From contig NC_010175.1 in NCBI RefSeq assembly GCF_000018865.1, positions 1,240,001 through 1,304,000 on the forward strand: 64,000 bases of DNA, given 5' to 3'. The notes under the pieces are model-generated. The model was not told the DNA's origin, searched no databases, and worked only from the letters and a program-made list of their open reading frames with translations. The stretch is from Chloroflexus aurantiacus J-10-fl. Its GTDB lineage: Bacteria; Chloroflexota; Chloroflexia; Chloroflexales; Chloroflexaceae. Position 1 is the stretch's first letter. Every line of letters starts with the position of its first letter. Shown piece by piece: positions 51,749 through 64,000 of this stretch. Position numbers and translations under genes: made by a program.

Positions 51749-51900
51749 CGCCTACTGTCATCCACTGTGGCTAATTGTTGGCAACGCAATGATGCATAGC
51801 AGCGCTGCGCAAAGGCGTTCTGGTATCATTGTGTTGTGTACAACCAGCCCTCTGGAGACAGCAGATTACCGGTTTGAAGTATGTTAAGGAGAAATCGGTC

Positions 51901-54336
51901 ATGAAGCGTTCGATCAGTTTCTTACTGCTGGTCGGTATGCTGGCTTCGATGCTGGCCGCCTGTGGTGCACCGCAGGCTCAGCCTACAGCCACACCGCAGC
52001 CAGCACCGCAGGCCACTGAAGCACCGCAGCCGACGGCTGCACCAACCGAACCACCTGCGGCTCAGGTGATCAAGATTGCCACCCAAAGCCCCTTGTCGGG
52101 TGGTCAGGCTGCGCTCGGTACCGGTATGAAGAATGCCGCCGAGCTGGCCGTGCAGCAGTTGTCTGGCCCGCTTACTGAGCTGGGCTTCCGCGTTGAACTG
52201 GCTCCATTCGATGACCAGGCCCGGCCAGAGGTTGGCTCGGCCAACGCCAAGAATATCGTCTCGGATCAGGATATTCTCTGCGTCGTTGGTCACCTCAATT
52301 CGGGTGTCGCCCTGGCTGCGCTGCCCGACTACAAGAATGCCAGCCTGCCGATGGTCTCACCGGCGAACACCAACCCGAACATCACCGAGGGTGGCTATGA
52401 AGTCGCCTTCCGCGTCGTCGGACGTGACGACGTGCAGGGTGTGGTGGCCGAGCAGTTCGCCCGCGAAACGTTGGGCGTGAAGTCGGTCTACATCATCCAC
52501 GACACCACCGCCTACGGGCAGGGTGTGGCCGAGTTCTTCCGCCAGGCGGCTGAGGCCAACGGTTTAGAGGTCTTGGGCTTTGAGGGTACCGAAGAGCGCA
52601 GTGACTTCTCGGCCATCCTCACCCCGATCCTGGCTGCCAATCCCGATCTGATCTTCTTCGGCGGTATCTACGACCAGGCTGGCCCCTTCTTCCGCCAGGC
52701 CCGCGACCGTGGCATCACTGCCCAGTTCATGGGACCCGATGGTATGGAGTCGGAAGAGCTGGTGACGCTGGCCGGTGATGCGGTCGATGGTATGTACTAC
52801 ACCACCGTCGCTGCTCCGGTGAGCCAGTTCCCCGATGCTGCGAAGTATGCCCAGGACTACCAGGCCGCGTTCGGTGATGCGGCGCCCGCCTTCTCGGCGC
52901 AGGCGTATGATGCGACCGGTATCTGTCTGACCGCAATTACCAACGCGGCAAAGGCTGCCGGTGGCAAGCCGACCCGTGCTCAGGTGTTGGCTGAAATTAA
53001 GGCTCTCCAGTCGTATAAGGGTATCACCGGTACCTACACCTTCAGCCCGAAGGGTGACCCCAACCCGGCAACCTACTTTGTGTTGCAGGTGAACGCTGCC
53101 GACTGGAGCCAGAACCGGCTGGTGACCCGCCTGGAGATTGCGCCTCCTGGCGAAGCTGCCAGTGGTGGTGGCACGACTGGCGGTACAACCGACTTCGATC
53201 TGGCAGCGCTGGCCGCTCAGCTCGGCAATGTTGCTGCCCGGCTCGGCACCATCAAGATTGCCACCCAAGGCCCGCTGTCAGGTGGTCAGGCTGCGCTCGG
53301 TACCGGTATGAAGAATGCCGCCGAGCTGGCAGTTGAGCAGCTCAATGCTCAGTTGGGTGCGCTTGGGATCAGGTTTGAGCTGGTTCCGTTCGACGACCAG
53401 GCTCGGCCAGAGGTTGGCTCGGCCAACGCCAAGAATATCGTCTCGGATCAGGATATTCTCTGTGTCGTTGGTCACCTCAATTCGGGTGTCGCCCTGGCTG
53501 CACTGCCCGACTACAAGAATGCCAGCCTGGCAATGGTCTCGCCGGCCAACACCAACCCAAACATCACCGAGGGCGGCTATGAAGTTGCCTTCCGCGTCGT
53601 CGGTCGCGACGACGTGCAGGGTGTGGTGGCCGAGCAGTTTGCCCGCGAAGAGCTGGGCGTGAAGTCGGTCTACATCATCCACGACACCACCGCCTACGGG
53701 CAGGGTGTGGCCGAGTTCTTCCGCCAGGCGGCTGAGGCCAACGGCTTGCAGGTGCTCGGCTTTGAGGGTACCGAAGAGCGCAGCGATTTCTCGGCAATCC
53801 TCACCCCGATCCTGGCTGCCAATCCCGATCTGGTCTTCTTCGGCGGTATCTACGACCAGGCTGGCCCCTTCTTCCGCCAGGCCCGCGACCGTGGCATCAC
53901 TGCCCAGTTTATGGGTCCAGACGGTCTGGAGTCGTCTGAGCTGGTCGATCTGGCAGGCGATGCAGTTGATGGCATGCACTACACCACCGTCGCTGCTCCG
54001 GTAAGCCAGTTCCCGCGTGCAGCCCAGTACGCGCAGGATTACCAGGCTGCGTTCGGCGATGCGGCGCCCGCCTTCTCGGCGCAGGCGTACGATGCGACCA
54101 ACATCTGCGCTGCCGGCATTCTGTCCGCAGCAGTTGCAGCCGGTGGTAAGCCGACCCGCGCCCAGGTTGTGCAGGCTATCCGCGATCTGCCACCATTCCC
54201 TGGCATTACCGGCACGTATGACTTCAATGCCAAGGGAGACCCAACGGTTGCTACCTATTTCGTGTTGAAGGTCAACGCGGCTGATTGGAACCAGAACGAG
54301 CTGATTAGCCGGCTGGAAATTGCGCCACCACAATAA
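51901..54336 (+). CDS. Branched-chain amino-acid-type ABC substrate-binding lipoprotein with two tandem binding domains
   Basis: The 811-residue lipoprotein has a signal peptide with lipobox (ASMLAAC) and a Thr/Pro/Gln-rich linker. Two complete Peripla_BP_6 (LIVBP) domains follow (residues ~57-400 and ~450-811), joined by a Gly/Thr-rich linker. Both carry IKIATQxPLSGGQAALGTGM, VGSANAKNIVSDQDIL, NASL.MVSPANTNPNITEG, VYIIHDTTAYGQGVAEFF and YDQAGPFFRQARDRG. The repeats are offset by 1182 bases (394 codons) and are nearly identical in long stretches at the DNA level. It likely binds branched-chain amino acids or similar amides. AAGGAG precedes the ATG. It is followed by permease and ATPase genes. 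Confidence 0.93.
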   Translation: MKRSISFLLLVGMLASMLAACGAPQAQPTATPQPAPQATEAPQPTAAPTEPPAAQVIKIATQSPLSGGQAALGTGMKNAAELAVQQLSGPLTELGFRVELAPFDDQARPEVGSANAKNIVSDQDILCVVGHLNSGVALAALPDYKNASLPMVSPANTNPNITEGGYEVAFRVVGRDDVQGVVAEQFARETLGVKSVYIIHDTTAYGQGVAEFFRQAAEANGLEVLGFEGTEERSDFSAILTPILAANPDLIFFGGIYDQAGPFFRQARDRGITAQFMGPDGMESEELVTLAGDAVDGMYYTTVAAPVSQFPDAAKYAQDYQAAFGDAAPAFSAQAYDATGICLTAITNAAKAAGGKPTRAQVLAEIKALQSYKGITGTYTFSPKGDPNPATYFVLQVNAADWSQNRLVTRLEIAPPGEAASGGGTTGGTTDFDLAALAAQLGNVAARLGTIKIATQGPLSGGQAALGTGMKNAAELAVEQLNAQLGALGIRFELVPFDDQARPEVGSANAKNIVSDQDILCVVGHLNSGVALAALPDYKNASLAMVSPANTNPNITEGGYEVAFRVVGRDDVQGVVAEQFAREELGVKSVYIIHDTTAYGQGVAEFFRQAAEANGLQVLGFEGTEERSDFSAILTPILAANPDLVFFGGIYDQAGPFFRQARDRGITAQFMGPDGLESSELVDLAGDAVDGMHYTTVAAPVSQFPRAAQYAQDYQAAFGDAAPAFSAQAYDATNICAAGILSAAVAAGGKPTRAQVVQAIRDLPPFPGITGTYDFNAKGDPTVATYFVLKVNAADWNQNELISRLEIAPPQ

Positions 54337-59205: not shown

Positions 59206-59889
59206 TCAGGGTTCCATTCGATACCCGACTCCCCATTCGGTTAACAAAAGCTGAGGCTGGCGCGGATCGATCTCAATCTTGCGCCGCAAATGCCAGATAT
59301 ATACCTTGAGATAATCGTTATCGCGCATCGGCTCACTACCCCATACAGCCCTTAGCAATTGCTCGTGTGTTACAACCTCGCCAGCGTGCTCAGCCAGTAC
59401 TAGAAGCAATTGATACTCGGTTGGGGTGAGATCAACCAGTTCACCCCGTACACGCACTTCTCGTTTCCGCTGATCAATGCTTATCAGGTTATTGCCAACC
59501 GTGAGTGGGCGATTGGTTGCAGGTACCCGCCGTAGTAAAGCACGAATCCGGGCCAGCAGTTCGTCGTAATTGAACGGTTTGATCACATAGTCATCGGCAC
59601 CTTGATTAAGCCCGGTAATAATATCTTCGGGCATCGTCCTGGCGGTCAGCATCAAAATGGGTAACGAGGCAAATTCACGCACCTTTTGACAAACCGTCAA
59701 CCCATCGAGGTCGGGTAACATAATATCGAGAATGACCAGATCAGGTCGTTGCTGTCGGATAATCTTAATTGCTTCCAGACCACTGATGGTCTGGATAACG
59801 TGATACCCTTCCTGTTCAAGGCGGACCCGGATCAATTCCTGCAAACCGCTGTCATCTTCAACGACCAGAATGGTCTCTGGCTGATCCAT
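59206..59889 (-). CDS. OmpR/PhoB-family response regulator
   Basis: The 227-residue regulator has a receiver (ILVVEDDSGLQ, DLVILDIMLPDLDG with phospho-Asp ~53, ILMLTARTM, VIKPFNYDEL with the switch Lys) and a winged-helix DNA-binding domain (VDLTPTEYQLLLVLAEHAGE; VYIWHLRRKIEIDP; GVGYRMEP). GGAGAACCTGT precedes the ATG. No histidine kinase is adjacent, so the partner lies elsewhere. It is next to the thioredoxin and ccm genes but with its own likely regulation. Confidence 0.93.
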   Translation of the reverse strand: MDQPETILVVEDDSGLQELIRVRLEQEGYHVIQTISGLEAIKIIRQQRPDLVILDIMLPDLDGLTVCQKVREFASLPILMLTARTMPEDIITGLNQGADDYVIKPFNYDELLARIRALLRRVPATNRPLTVGNNLISIDQRKREVRVRGELVDLTPTEYQLLLVLAEHAGEVVTHEQLLRAVWGSEPMRDNDYLKVYIWHLRRKIEIDPRQPQLLLTEWGVGYRMEP

Positions 59890-59927: not shown

Positions 59928-60776
59928 TTACTGCGATGTTTGACCACCACTCGCTGCTCGCAATTCGGTAAAGCGAGCTGTAATATCGTCGAGGGTTAGT
60001 TCACCGATGTGAACATAGCGAATCTGTCCATCGGGCGTAATAAAGAAGCTGGTGGGTAGAGGAAAGACCCGATACGCTTCAGTGATTGTACCCTCGGTAT
60101 CGAGTGCAATCGGGTATGTAACACCGTACTGCGCCAGGAACGCAGCCACATCGGCAATAGTTTGTCCATTCACCTGCTCATCATCGGTGAGGTTCACACC
60201 GATGACCATCAAACCCTGGTCGGAAAACTGCTCATACGCTTGCTGCAAAGCCGGCAACTCCCGCTTGCATGGTTCGCACCAGGTTCCCCAAAAATTCAGG
60301 ACAACGACTTTTCCCCGGTATTGAGACAGCTCTATCGTACCACCACGCAATTCAGGGGCTGTAAAGTCAGGTGCCGGACGATTCACCTCACCCATCGCCT
60401 GGCCGGTAAGTGTCTCCCGGTTCGTAAATATCCACACACCTGCCACCACAGCGACGGCTATGAATGAAAAAGCAAATACGCTCAGCCACTCGCGTCGGCT
60501 CAGCTCACGACGGACTGGCCGGCTTGTTGATGGTATCAGACCCTGACTGATGTCATACTGACGCCGCCGTTCAGGATCACGTAATACGTGGTACGCTCGC
60601 TCGATGGTCTGTAGCCGCTCTTGCGCCACTGCCCGGAGTTCATCATCGAGATCGGCAACCCGTTCCGGTGCATAGCGCTGCCGTTGTTCAGCATAAGCGG
60701 CATCAATTGCTGCCTGATCGGCATCAGGGGTTATCCCCAACAGACTATAGTAATTTGGTCTGTTCATATTTGACAT
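59928..60776 (-). CDS. J-like domain fused via a membrane helix to a TlpA/ResA/CcmG-type thioredoxin
   Basis: This 282-residue protein starts with a J-domain-like helical region (NYYSLLGITPDADQAAIDAA, ERAYHVLRDPERRRQYD), but its HPD tripeptide reads APE (RYAPERV). A membrane helix (~93-113, WLSVFAFSFIAVAVVAGVWIF) then leads to an extracytoplasmic thioredoxin-like domain (VLNFWGTWCEPCKRELPAL) with WCEPC active site and PIALDTEGTITEAYRVFPLP. TlpA/CcmG proteins reduce apocytochrome c or other exported thiols. It follows the J-TPR and ccmF genes, suggesting a CcmG role. An AGGTAAGG stretch lies before the ATG. Confidence 0.85.
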   Translation of the reverse strand: MSNMNRPNYYSLLGITPDADQAAIDAAYAEQRQRYAPERVADLDDELRAVAQERLQTIERAYHVLRDPERRRQYDISQGLIPSTSRPVRRELSRREWLSVFAFSFIAVAVVAGVWIFTNRETLTGQAMGEVNRPAPDFTAPELRGGTIELSQYRGKVVVLNFWGTWCEPCKRELPALQQAYEQFSDQGLMVIGVNLTDDEQVNGQTIADVAAFLAQYGVTYPIALDTEGTITEAYRVFPLPTSFFITPDGQIRYVHIGELTLDDITARFTELRAASGGQTSQ

Positions 60777-60808
60777 TGTAGCATACCTTACCTGAAAAGC
60801 TATATAGT

Positions 60809-61906
60809 TTATTGACTATACTCGTCAATCAAGATTTGAGCCTGTAATTGCAGTCCCGGAGCGACTCCCGGAATGGACAGGACAAGCTGCCACTGTTGAA
60901 TCGCGCGCTCGGTTTGCGGTGGATCGACGGCAACCAGGCAGATGCCATGCGAGAGCAGGACACGGGCATTTTGCGGTGCTGCCTGAAGTGCTTTTTCAGC
61001 CTCGCTCAGCCCCTCTGCTGCCTGCTGGGGATTGTTGGTATCGAGACCGTAGTAACACAGACTGGCGGCAATATCGGCGCGAATGACATCGTTGCCGGGT
61101 TGCAGCTCGAGGGCTTTACGATACGCATCAACCGCCTCCAACCAGCGCGGAAGCCGCTCTTGATAAATTTGCTGCGCCTCGGCATTGCCATTCGTCAGTT
61201 GCTCACGTACATACACCACACTGTCGAACAGTGCATTACCAAGGTTAATCCAGGCATTCGGATTGTCAGGCACCTGATCTGTGACTTGTCGAGCTGCAAT
61301 CACTTGCCCCTCGAATTGATCGAGAATTTCGCGCAAGGTTGGCGTGGGTGGGACAATCGTTGCCACTGTTGTCGGTGCCGCAGGTGGTGGTGCAACCACT
61401 GCTGTACTGATCAATGTGCCGAGCACGATGCTAAAGGTCGCCGCCGCCACAACCAGCGATGGTAAGAGCCAGGCCGGCTGTTGTCGCTGCACAACTCGTC
61501 CACGGGTCATTGTAGCCTGTTTTGAACGTGGGCTAAGGTATGGCTGTGGATTAAAGCCCGGTGGTCGCTCCTGACGACGGGCCGGCGGTAAGGGACGAAA
61601 ATCGATCAGATCATCGTCCATTTCGCCAACCGGCAGCGTGTCTGCCTTCACTTCCGGTACTGGCAGCGAAGGTTGAACCTGTTCTTTTAGCTGTTGATCA
61701 TACTCGGCACGTCGCCGGGGATCGCTTAACACCTGATACGCCCGTTCGATCTCGTCGCGCCGTCGACGCGCCAGTTCGACCAACTCATCAGCCGCCCCTT
61801 CCAGGCGGGCAGGATCGTACCGTTCACGTAATCGTTCGTAGGCGGCACGAATAGCTTCGGCATCTGCCTTCGGATGAACTTGCAGGATTTCGTAGTAGTC
61901 AGCCAT
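60809..61906 (-). CDS. J-like domain fused via a membrane helix to a TPR domain (CcmI/CycH-like candidate)
   Basis: The 365-residue product starts with a J-like domain (YYEILQVHPKADAEAIRAAY, IERAYQVLSDPRRRAEYD) whose HPD position reads DPA (RYDPARL), so it cannot stimulate Hsp70 in the usual way. A basic linker, a membrane helix (~152-175) and a helical extracytoplasmic part with TPR-like units follow (NPNAWINLGNALFDSVVYV; AVDAYRKALELQPGNDVIRA; AEKALQAAPQNARVLLSHGI). The lone helix plus TPR layout and position next to ccmF recall CcmI, which holds apocytochrome c during haem attachment. The ATG at 61906 gives the MADYYEIL start; a GTG at 61915 is an alternative. Confidence 0.8.
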   Translation of the reverse strand: MADYYEILQVHPKADAEAIRAAYERLRERYDPARLEGAADELVELARRRRDEIERAYQVLSDPRRRAEYDQQLKEQVQPSLPVPEVKADTLPVGEMDDDLIDFRPLPPARRQERPPGFNPQPYLSPRSKQATMTRGRVVQRQQPAWLLPSLVVAAATFSIVLGTLISTAVVAPPPAAPTTVATIVPPTPTLREILDQFEGQVIAARQVTDQVPDNPNAWINLGNALFDSVVYVREQLTNGNAEAQQIYQERLPRWLEAVDAYRKALELQPGNDVIRADIAASLCYYGLDTNNPQQAAEGLSEAEKALQAAPQNARVLLSHGICLVAVDPPQTERAIQQWQLVLSIPGVAPGLQLQAQILIDEYSQ

Positions 61907-62075: not shown

Positions 62076-64000
62076 CTAGTCGCCGGCCCCGCGCCAGCCC
62101 AGTTGAGCCGCCAGTTCCGGCAACGCTTTGGGTAGTCGTACTCGTGCACCAGCCAGCGCCAGACTACCTTCAAGGTAGCGCCGTACCAGTGCGATTGCAC
62201 CGCCGATCACCATCATGATAACACCAGTCCAGACCAGCACAACCAGCGGTTTGACACTCACCGCAATGACAGCCTTGGCCGGCACCACCGGCAGATCATC
62301 CAGGCCGGGACCACTACCTTCGAGAAGCACCATGCGGTTGGTCGGATCAAGCTCCGCTAGACGCAGGGTGTGGCCACCGGGTAGGGTGACCGGAATGAAC
62401 TGCAACTCACCTTCATTCGTGGTCGGATTGGGGACAACTTCCACCCGCGGCTCAACCTCGAAGGTCTGGCCTTCATAAGTAACTTCGACACGGGCGCCAA
62501 CCTTCGCTTCACCACGCATCATTGCCTCGCGGTCGATATTGAACCCGCGGAAGGTCAACGTGTATGGCCCCATCTGTGCGCTCTGATCCACACCTAACAC
62601 CGGTCGCGAAGGATCACGTTCCGGGTCATAACCTGCCGGTGAAATGTAGAGATCGTGCCAGAGATAGCTGTGGATCGAGGGCGTTTGCATGGTTGCGCCC
62701 ATACGCTGATTAAAGTAGAGATACGGTCGAGCCGAGAAGGTACCCGATCCGTCACTCACCGTGAGATCGAGCACACCACGCTGCTGGTCATCAAGTTGAT
62801 AGCCGTTGAAGATAAACTCATAGCCAAACAATCGGGCCGACTCACCGGGAGATAGCGTCAGGCGAGTATCGGGAGTAGCGTAGGCCGAAGAGGCAACCAT
62901 CCCAATCGCCATCACTGTAAAACCGAGGTGAGCAAGATAGCCACCGATCCGTAACCAGCCACCACGCAGGGTACGAATAATCATCACCAGGTTCGTTCCA
63001 AACGCGAAGACACCACCGGCAACATAAGCCAGGGAGAGCAAATCGCGCACATTGATAATCATGGCCACGACAGCCGCTATCACTGCAAACACTGCCGGCC
63101 AACGCAATGCACGCAGGAGGTGGCTGAGATTAGCGTCGCGCCAGCCAAGGAGTGGCCCAACGATCAGCAACACGATTGCTACCACGCCGAGTGGAGGTAC
63201 TGTGCGCTGGTAGAAGGATGGGGCAAGCGAAAAACGGCCATCTTCAAACGGTTGCGCCTGCGGGTTCATCAGGGTGCCGTCATCAAGCTCGAAATAACGC
63301 CCCATCCACTCTTGCAGCGTATGCCCTACCCCAGGAATAGCCGAAATGACCGGCATCGAGGTGCCGATACCAACGACCAGCGCGGTCATGACAATGGTAA
63401 TAATCGCCAGCACGAAGAAGCTATCACGCGAGAAGAATTTGTCACTAAGTGGACGGGCAGGAATATCGTTCCAGCGGGCCAGCAACGAGACAATGGCAAC
63501 CGCCAGCAAGAAAATCTGAAAGCCAACCAGTCCCTCAAAAATCCCTTCGGCGACAAATGAGTGGACAGAGAAGTTAGCATAGACCCCGCTGCGGGTCATA
63601 AAGGTAGCGTAGAACACCGTAATGTACGTCGCCACACCCAACACGAGGTTGGTCTTTCGCAAACCACCGTGGGTGCGTTGCACAAGCATCCCGTGGATCA
63701 GGGCGGTTAGAATGAGCCAGGGTACCAGCGACAAGTTTTCAACCGGATCCCAACCCCAATAGCCACCCCAGCCCAGCGTCTCATAAGCCCAGTAACCGCC
63801 GAGCAAGAGTGCCAGCCCCAGAAATGCCCAGGCCGCCAATGTCCATGGCAAGGCCCGTTTCACCCATGTATCGTAATCGCGCCGCCACAGCGCAGCCAGG
63901 GCAAATGCGAAGGGAATCATGGAAAGCGCATAGCCAACGAACAGGATTGGGGGGTGAATGATCATCCAGAAGTTGTGCAACAGCGGATTGAGACCGCGAC
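62076..64000 (-). CDS. ccmF: Cytochrome c haem-lyase subunit CcmF, C-terminal majority, cut by window edge
   Basis: The visible ~641 residues are the bulk of CcmF, which delivers haem to apocytochrome c. Features include the entry LNPLLHNFWMIIHPPILFVG, the haem-binding WWD-type motif GYWGWDPVENLSLVPW, FMTRSGVYANFSVHSF and further helices to WLRIGGYLAHLGF. A large extracytoplasmic domain (~390-590) and a final anchor helix (VWTGVIMMVIGGAIALV) follow. The gene starts beyond base 64000: the frame is open to the edge (RGLNPLL). Downstream lie the TPR and thioredoxin partners. Confidence 0.93.
   Translation of the reverse strand, partial: RGLNPLLHNFWMIIHPPILFVGYALSMIPFAFALAALWRRDYDTWVKRALPWTLAAWAFLGLALLLGGYWAYETLGWGGYWGWDPVENLSLVPWLILTALIHGMLVQRTHGGLRKTNLVLGVATYITVFYATFMTRSGVYANFSVHSFVAEGIFEGLVGFQIFLLAVAIVSLLARWNDIPARPLSDKFFSRDSFFVLAIITIVMTALVVGIGTSMPVISAIPGVGHTLQEWMGRYFELDDGTLMNPQAQPFEDGRFSLAPSFYQRTVPPLGVVAIVLLIVGPLLGWRDANLSHLLRALRWPAVFAVIAAVVAMIINVRDLLSLAYVAGGVFAFGTNLVMIIRTLRGGWLRIGGYLAHLGFTVMAIGMVASSAYATPDTRLTLSPGESARLFGYEFIFNGYQLDDQQRGVLDLTVSDGSGTFSARPYLYFNQRMGATMQTPSIHSYLWHDLYISPAGYDPERDPSRPVLGVDQSAQMGPYTLTFRGFNIDREAMMRGEAKVGARVEVTYEGQTFEVEPRVEVVPNPTTNEGELQFIPVTLPGGHTLRLAELDPTNRMVLLEGSGPGLDDLPVVPAKAVIAVSVKPLVVLVWTGVIMMVIGGAIALVRRYLEGSLALAGARVRLPKALPELAAQLGWRGAGD

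Follow-up and report, generated by a model that had tools for sequence, protein, structure and literature searches.

Diverged J-like domains on a TPR protein and a ResA-like thioredoxin encoded beside ccmF in Chloroflexales

Introduction

Directly after ccmF in Chloroflexus aurantiacus J-10-fl lie the genes of two membrane proteins which each begin with a J-like domain lacking the HPD tripeptide. A single membrane helix follows in both, and then an outer module, of TPR type in one protein and of thioredoxin type in the other. What might a pair of such domains be doing at a locus whose genes, as read from their sequence, are putatively concerned with the making of cytochrome c? The locus offers a natural case of two J domains beside one enzyme that have lost the Hsp70 signature and are nevertheless conserved, and it would allow a direct test of whether the J fold can serve bacteria in a non-chaperone role. 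It also bears on how heme is attached by a System I* without CcmH.

Searches of open-licence PMC papers gave no match for a J domain in connection with cytochrome c maturation, or in fusion with TlpA or TPR, in Chloroflexus or Chloroflexi; nor did they give one for Chloroflexus cytochrome c biogenesis with CcmF or for an HPD-lacking, Hsp70-independent J protein. A preliminary description of the locus had drawn attention to the paired architecture. New here are the absence of CcmH, the Cys-type CcmE, the ResA-like nature of the thioredoxin, the probable origin of its J domain as an old copy of that of the TPR protein, and the linker peptide D[YF]xPL.

Locus and domain architecture

The window, by which we mean the whole stretch of 64,000 nucleotides analysed, comes from a genome of 5,258,541 bases in a single contig. 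The gene order on the minus strand is an ABC ATPase gene (in the place of ccmA), ccmB, a Cytochrom_C_asm gene (in the place of ccmC), ccmE, ccmF, the genes for the two proteins, here called J-TPR and J-TlpA, and a response regulator gene (Table 1). The four products encoded upstream of ccmF (ABC ATPase, CcmB, Cytochrom_C_asm protein and CcmE) were assigned by Pfam in the organism's own genome. The region of interest extends from the ATG of the TPR gene at 61906 to the final base of the thioredoxin gene stop codon at 59928, and reading frames, Pfam matches and AlphaFold2 models bear out the positions and the two three-part architectures set out in the preliminary description. By eye, no kinase gene is seen beside the response regulator in the window. 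Elsewhere in it, an 835-residue frame with two Peripla_BP_6 stretches (51829-54336) heads what appears by eye to be a branched-chain amino acid ABC operon.

Table 1. Positions of genes, domains and motifs in the window
Feature	Position	Strand	Residues	Basis and remarks
ccmF	62076..64000	-	797 (full gene)	5' end outside window; full gene at genome 1302076-1304469
J-TPR gene (CcmI position)	60809..61906	-	365	From ATG 61906; alternative GTG start 61915; Pfam; ccmF adjacency
J-like domain of J-TPR, HPD-less	61691..61906	-	1-72	DnaJ 49.5 bits; AlphaFold2; solved DnaJ chains, best E 2.1e-9
HPD-equivalent tripeptide DPA of J-TPR	61808..61816	-	31-33	Aligned position
Cytosolic (predicted) linker peptide of J-TPR around DFRPLPPARRQERP	61541..61612	-	99-122	Alignment; conserved
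Membrane helix of J-TPR, single	61400..61468	-	147-169	AlphaFold2 and hydrophobicity
Helical TPR-type domain of J-TPR, predicted extracytoplasmic	60815..61336	-	191-364	TPR_11 over cut-off; block pLDDT 89-98 (191-365)
J-TlpA gene (CcmG position)	59928..60776	-	282	Pfam
J-like domain of J-TlpA, HPD-less	60546..60755	-	8-77	DnaJ 47.1 bits; AlphaFold2; solved DnaJ chains, best E 1.1e-6
HPD-equivalent tripeptide APE of J-TlpA	60663..60671	-	36-38	Aligned position
Membrane helix of J-TlpA, single	60423..60497	-	94-118	AlphaFold2 and hydrophobicity
ResA-like thioredoxin domain of J-TlpA, predicted extracytoplasmic	59946..60395	-	128-277	AhpC-TSA 121.5 bits; ResA fold matches
Active site WCEPC of J-TlpA	60267..60281	-	166-170	Sequence
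Response regulator gene, receiver and Trans_reg_C	59206..59889	-		Pfam; 3' of TlpA in most Chloroflexales genomes (see text)

Both N-terminal regions exceed the cut-off of 27.8 bits of the Pfam DnaJ profile (PF00226), over residues 3-70 of J-TPR and 8-75 of J-TlpA. The AlphaFold2 models have their helices in J-type order, at residues 3-8, 16-29, 32-61 and 63-77 of J-TPR (block pLDDT 55-87 over residues 1-80) and at 9-13, 21-34, 45-66 and 68-77 of J-TlpA (93-97 over residues 11-80). Together with the matches to solved J domains, these results rule out a chance likeness, and the J fold, on whose presence in both N-termini the preliminary description had staked its proposal, was found in each. 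The fold comparisons bear on the outer domains: Foldseek listed thioredoxins alone for J-TlpA, and the VIA list for J-TPR was filled by proteins resembling its TPR part, among them many 14-3-3 proteins.

Of the outer domains, that of J-TPR passes the TPR_11 profile narrowly (27.7 bits, cut-off 26.8), and all five residues of the WCEPC active site of J-TlpA are invariant among 19 aligned relatives. By the positive-inside rule, the basic flank of a transmembrane segment is the cytosolic one. Every aligned relative of the two proteins (19/19 for J-TlpA and 15/15 for J-TPR, 34/34 in all) has one hydrophobic membrane segment with basic residues richer on the J side. The J part is therefore predicted to be cytosolic, and the thioredoxin or TPR part to lie outside.

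Divergence from the Hsp70-binding type

The absence of HPD, replaced by APE and DPA as the preliminary description had observed, extends well beyond the window. At the aligned position HPD is found in none of 63 distinct TPR J domains and none of 62 distinct TlpA J domains, one of the latter having an HPD elsewhere, while it is kept in 24 of 24 other J domains, a control set chosen by hand rather than at random (20 loci from a long list and four from the organism's own genome). Four further 'other' J domains without HPD, which would make the count 24 of 28, belong to this same gene pair and are fragments produced by frameshifts or contig ends. On this hand-chosen set, we reject the idea that J proteins of the phylum lack HPD as a rule. 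Another J protein of the own genome (locus L008, 1317-2633; DnaJ 42.9 bits) keeps HPD and looks, by eye, as if it had both a membrane segment and an outer domain.

The surface residues of DnaJ that we compared are positions contacting DnaK. The comparison, made by alignment column with E. coli DnaJ, covered 50 TPR, 53 TlpA, six TlpA-2 and 22 control domains remaining after dereplication at 90%. The fold-core residues Y7, L10, L57, R63, Y66 and D67 are retained in nearly all TPR and TlpA J domains; the TlpA-2 domains stop before R63. H33, present in 22/22 controls, is gone from 102 of the 103 TPR and TlpA domains (it remains in 1/50 and 0/53, respectively), and D35, again present in 22/22 controls, is found in 1/50 TPR and 15/53 TlpA domains. 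P34 occurs in 36/50 and 35/53. Basic residues are scarce at the equivalents of K26 (5/50 TPR and 4/53 TlpA against 18/22 controls) and K48 (1/50 and 6/53 against 13/22), the latter being acidic in 30/50 TPR domains, and at R22 they number 18/50, 5/53 and 12/22. They are frequent at the equivalents of R27 (46/50 TPR, 24/53 TlpA) and K31 (31/50, 39/53). Since these last two are often still basic, the Hsp70-facing side of both J domains is, as far as the aligned sequences can tell, altered rather than erased, with the HPD signature itself gone.

Could the domains, then, still bind Hsp70 (DnaK), either holding it without stimulating it or acting as competitors? The basic R27 and K31 equivalents of the TPR J domains would suit such a role, as would the D35 of a minority of TlpA J domains, but the almost complete loss of H33, the loss of most K26 and K48 equivalents and the reversed charge at K48 make it, in our judgement, very unlikely. 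The loss of HPD suggests, therefore, that the J-like domain is probably a docking piece and not a partner of Hsp70.

Mean dN/dS over unsaturated pairs was 0.11 for the TlpA J domain, 0.08 for the TPR J domain, 0.09 for the thioredoxin domain, 0.07 for the TPR domain, 0.24-0.34 for the linkers and 0.107 for the motif region, values drawn from nine pairs in three genera, several of them saturated, with domain borders in the TPR protein set by the window's protein and displaced by a few residues in the two remaining genera. Both J domains are, on these ratios, under purifying selection, at least in the organism's own family. That they are decaying remnants is disfavoured by the low dN/dS, though the TlpA J domain has been shortened or lost in some lineages.

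Distribution and gene linkage

In the Chloroflexales set of 82 genomes, the TPR profile matches 74 and the TlpA profile 81, of which 78 were assigned to the present locus type by coordinates. J status was coded by hand from match ranges and maps, shortened and very weak TlpA J domains being scored as present. So coded, the J domain of the TPR protein is conserved across the order, present in 66 genomes, absent from six and not assigned in two. That of TlpA is present in 59 and not assigned in two, and is absent from 17 of the 76 that could be scored; in some genomes it is shortened at the HPD loop. Both proteins carry J in 54 genomes, the TPR protein alone in 10 and neither in six, all of one genus; in five more, J-TlpA is present and the TPR gene was not found or is cut. 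In no Chloroflexales genome does a J-bearing TlpA accompany a TPR protein shown to be J-less. To judge from these counts, the J domain on the thioredoxin is dispensable. The J module as a whole seems not to be essential to the pathway, since the six J-less genomes retain the same gene order.

Linkage with ccmF is close to complete. In 68 of the 73 Chloroflexales genomes mapped, the TPR gene follows directly on ccmF, and in the remaining five the locus is interrupted by the end of a contig. The TPR and TlpA genes lie at most 1.5 kb apart in 66 of the 72 genomes with both, falling on different contigs in the remaining six. TlpA is truly separate from ccmF and the TPR gene in four genomes (G039, G040, G426 and G428). 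The expectation that the fusions adjoin ccmF is thus upheld in most genomes, and a pair found mostly without ccmF, the opposite outcome, was not seen.

Near-total linkage also bears on a reading in which the J-like domain has no specific partner and acts on its own, as a cap for folding, insertion or topology (an N-in anchor). Such a cap would fit the tolerated loss of J from TlpA and the other J proteins of the phylum, which by eye appear to show a membrane segment after the J domain and outer parts of various kinds. Those examined, however, keep HPD (24/24), and the J domain of the TPR protein is under selection of much the same strength as its TPR domain; with the ccmF linkage added, we consider a mere cap improbable.

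In 73 of 77 Chloroflexales genomes mapped, TlpA is followed by the response regulator gene (three are cut by edges and in one it is not adjacent), which stays with TlpA away from ccmF in G039, G040, G428, G426 and G345. This association might be taken to mean that redox state is signalled jointly by the regulator and the thioredoxin's cytosolic J-like domain. However, the two genes are linked just as closely in genomes whose TlpA is J-less, and nothing here connects J domains with receiver domains, leaving very little in favour of a signalling role.

A scan of genome contigs with patterns drawn from the present family returned 37 loci, 34 with Chloroflexi-type labels, one labelled 'bacterium' and two in oddly labelled bins; records labelled Chloroflexus show 79-80% identity to the window's TPR protein. 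The two odd bins, labelled Cyanobacteria and Gracilibacteria (L235 and L244), hold a Chloroflexales-type J-TPR gene and are probably mis-binned contigs. No J-like match was found in 11 chosen and mapped ccmF regions outside Chloroflexales (L098-L108), eight of which have a thioredoxin and three none that was recognised. In one of the eight, from another Chloroflexota family, the thioredoxin is fused to CcmF (L101, 4592-7198), giving an 869-residue frame with CcmF_C and AhpC-TSA both over cut-off. A second J-TlpA type, with a J domain ending in LRPAL, lies beside a ccmF-like gene in 6/6 copies from five genomes (L094, L095, L168, L169, L170 and L171); the one copy scanned reached 20.5 bits with the DnaJ profile, below the cut-off of 27.8.

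Origin of the two J domains

A tree of J domains (131 rows, 74 columns, midpoint-drawn) places the HPD controls on one side of a 100/97 branch. On one side of a further branch, of modest support (96/62), stand 52 of the 53 TlpA domains and all six TlpA-2 domains; the remaining TlpA domain (L173) sits among those of TPR proteins. If the tree is rooted on the HPD side, the J domains of TlpA are nested within those of the TPR proteins. The thioredoxin's J domain would then look like an early copy of that of the TPR protein, followed by repeated loss or shortening on TlpA, the direction of copying being our reading of the nesting.

The close kinship of the two domains, their conservation and the proximity of their genes invite the idea that they form a cytosolic heterodimer tying the TPR and thioredoxin arms together, for which Pam16/Pam18 is, as presented in an excerpt of PMC3806816, a precedent among J-type domains. 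The lack of any genome with J on TlpA and a TPR protein shown to be J-less points the same way. Covariation is equivocal: the top-1% mean is higher for the J-J pair than for the other five between-protein domain pairs by a hair only (0.319 against 0.286-0.313), while the J-J maximum of 0.449 lies below the 0.501 seen for the TPR protein's J domain with the thioredoxin domain, in an alignment of 43 pairs, about 29 effective. Pam18, moreover, keeps HPD, which both members lack here. Because 10 genomes have J on the TPR protein alone and covariation shows no clear excess, mutual pairing, one of the options floated in the preliminary description, is disfavoured as the sole role, and we rate the heterodimer as possible but rather unlikely.

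A conserved peptide in the cytosolic linker

Between the J-like domain and the membrane, the linker of J-TPR reads DYRPLPPARRQERP or a variant of it in the alignment, and the window's DNA matches the linker motif pattern at 61584-61603. The core D[YF]xPL was matched by script in 69 of 72 distinct Chloroflexales frames, a count in which one protein may figure twice where locus ends cut it differently; the other three comprise DYRPLTP and DYRPLAP, recognised by eye, and one frame cut before the site. Elsewhere in the own genome, the DNA pattern for D[YF]RPLPP occurs once more, within a 95-residue frame that overlaps a longer frame looking, by eye, like a sensor kinase. D[YF]xPL is retained in the six genomes whose TPR protein is J-less, so the motif does not depend on a J domain in the same protein, and is most simply read as having a partner in trans.

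Type of cytochrome c maturation system

The preliminary description had equated a TPR protein and a thioredoxin with the exact set of System I partners of CcmF. System I normally also includes CcmH, and CcmH (PF03918) was found in 0/19 Chloroflexales genomes sampled, neither over the cut-off nor at E 0.001, so that the equation, taken as written, is not supported. CcmH was found in 108 of 201 genomes sampled across the whole phylum and in all five listed genomes of the class's other families. CcmE is of Cys-type, with CPSKY, in 21/21 Chloroflexales loci read as well as in the own genome. According to excerpts of PMC3601427, a Cys-type CcmE marks the System I* variant, and about one third of the bacteria that have it possess CcmH; absence of CcmH is thus frequent in System I* rather than defining. 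By these sequence marks, the locus is of System I* type. Outside the order, Cys-type CcmE is also seen in L098, L099, L102-L104 and L106-L108, with CxxxF in four of these eight, and CcmH is often present there.

The top four fold matches of the thioredoxin domain of J-TlpA are all ResA, at 39-40% identity and TMt 0.92-0.93. Against the NCBIfam models, J-TlpA scores 143.2 bits for ResA (NF002854, cut-off 170) and 69.3 bits for CcmG/DsbE (TIGR00385, cut-off 123.15), and it has the make-up of CcmG/DsbE in being a membrane-anchored thioredoxin with WCxxC, on the predicted extracytoplasmic side. J-TPR reaches 31.6 bits with TPR_CcmH_CycH (PF23914, cut-off 42) and has one membrane segment in 15/15 relatives, not the two N-terminal helices of CcmI/CycH. 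The earlier labels, CcmG-like and CcmI-like, are therefore apt as to place and architecture, but both proteins fall below the family cut-offs, and it is ResA structures that the thioredoxin most resembles.

A System II reading is rejected in view of the lack of ResB: no ResB/CcsB was found in the own genome by a search that was positive in 5 of 14 control genomes. The own genome has one DsbD_TM (CcdA-like) gene, which could supply electrons to the thioredoxin. With a ResA-like thioredoxin, no ResB in the own genome, no CcmH in the genomes sampled and a Cys-type CcmE, the Chloroflexales locus therefore looks like a System I* without CcmH that draws on a ResA-like reductant and a TPR partner.

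Proposed role

Our preferred reading, offered tentatively and with a likelihood somewhat short of even, is that the J-like domain works independently of Hsp70, as a docking module on the cytosolic side for the partners of the heme lyase in a System I* without CcmH. A J domain would have been recruited to the cytosolic N-terminus of CcmF's TPR partner, would have lost HPD before the Chloroflexales diversified and would then have been copied onto the adjoining ResA-like thioredoxin. The TPR protein is the partner constantly encoded next to CcmF, and docking is attributed to its J-like domain and D[YF]xPL, which together may anchor it to the CcmF complex from the inner face; the J domain on the thioredoxin, where present, would recruit the reductant there as well. 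On the outer side, capture of the apocytochrome by the TPR domain, CXXCH reduction by WCEPC and heme attachment by CcmF could in this way be held together without CcmH, with the thioredoxin perhaps doing the work of CcmG and CcmH.

The preliminary description's choice of cytosolic docking over Hsp70 fares well in its first part, a non-Hsp70 cytosolic role being the likeliest given the J fold, the loss of HPD and the ccmF linkage, and less well in its option of mutual J-J pairing, which is disfavoured as the sole role. A bolder version, which we think more improbable than not by a wide measure, sees the two diverged J domains and D[YF]xPL as a cytosolic clamp, built as CcmH was lost, that unites TPR chaperone, ResA-like reductant and CcmF in parallel to Pam16/Pam18. 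In either form, the J-like domain and D[YF]xPL are candidates for assembling the heme-lyase complex in Chloroflexus-type bacteria.

Comparison with known systems

The System I* of Desulfovibrio and archaea, as excerpted in PMC3601427, shares with the Chloroflexales locus the Cys-type CcmE and a set of genes in which no CcmH was found. The Chloroflexales differ in having a membrane thioredoxin, closest to ResA, and a TPR partner, with a cytosolic (predicted) J-like domain on each in most genomes. ResA, the thioredoxin of System II, resembles J-TlpA in fold and, in the top four matches, in sequence, whereas J-TlpA carries the J-like fusion, lies beside ccmF in a genome without detected ResB and scores below the ResA model.

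The proteobacterial CcmI/CycH is likewise a TPR protein that has a cytosolic segment and whose gene lies next to ccmF (PMC3884852, in excerpt). J-TPR has one membrane segment instead of two and falls below the PF23914 cut-off, and its J-like domain and D[YF]xPL replace the loop; by analogy, the J-like domain would take the place of the cytosolic region of CcmI. In the same excerpt, that region holds a leucine zipper in R. capsulatus CcmI and lacks one in P. aeruginosa CcmI, and it may be that docking is its task in R. capsulatus. CcmI boosts production and is not required, according to the excerpted PMC3601427.

The closest parallel for the J domains themselves is Pam16/Pam18 (Tim16/Tim14), which in the excerpted PMC3806816 are also membrane-linked J-type domains, one of them HPD-less. 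That pair combines a J-like with an HPD-bearing J domain, whereas J-TPR and J-TlpA are both HPD-less, are bacterial, and have predicted extracytoplasmic thioredoxin and TPR domains in place of a protein import motor.
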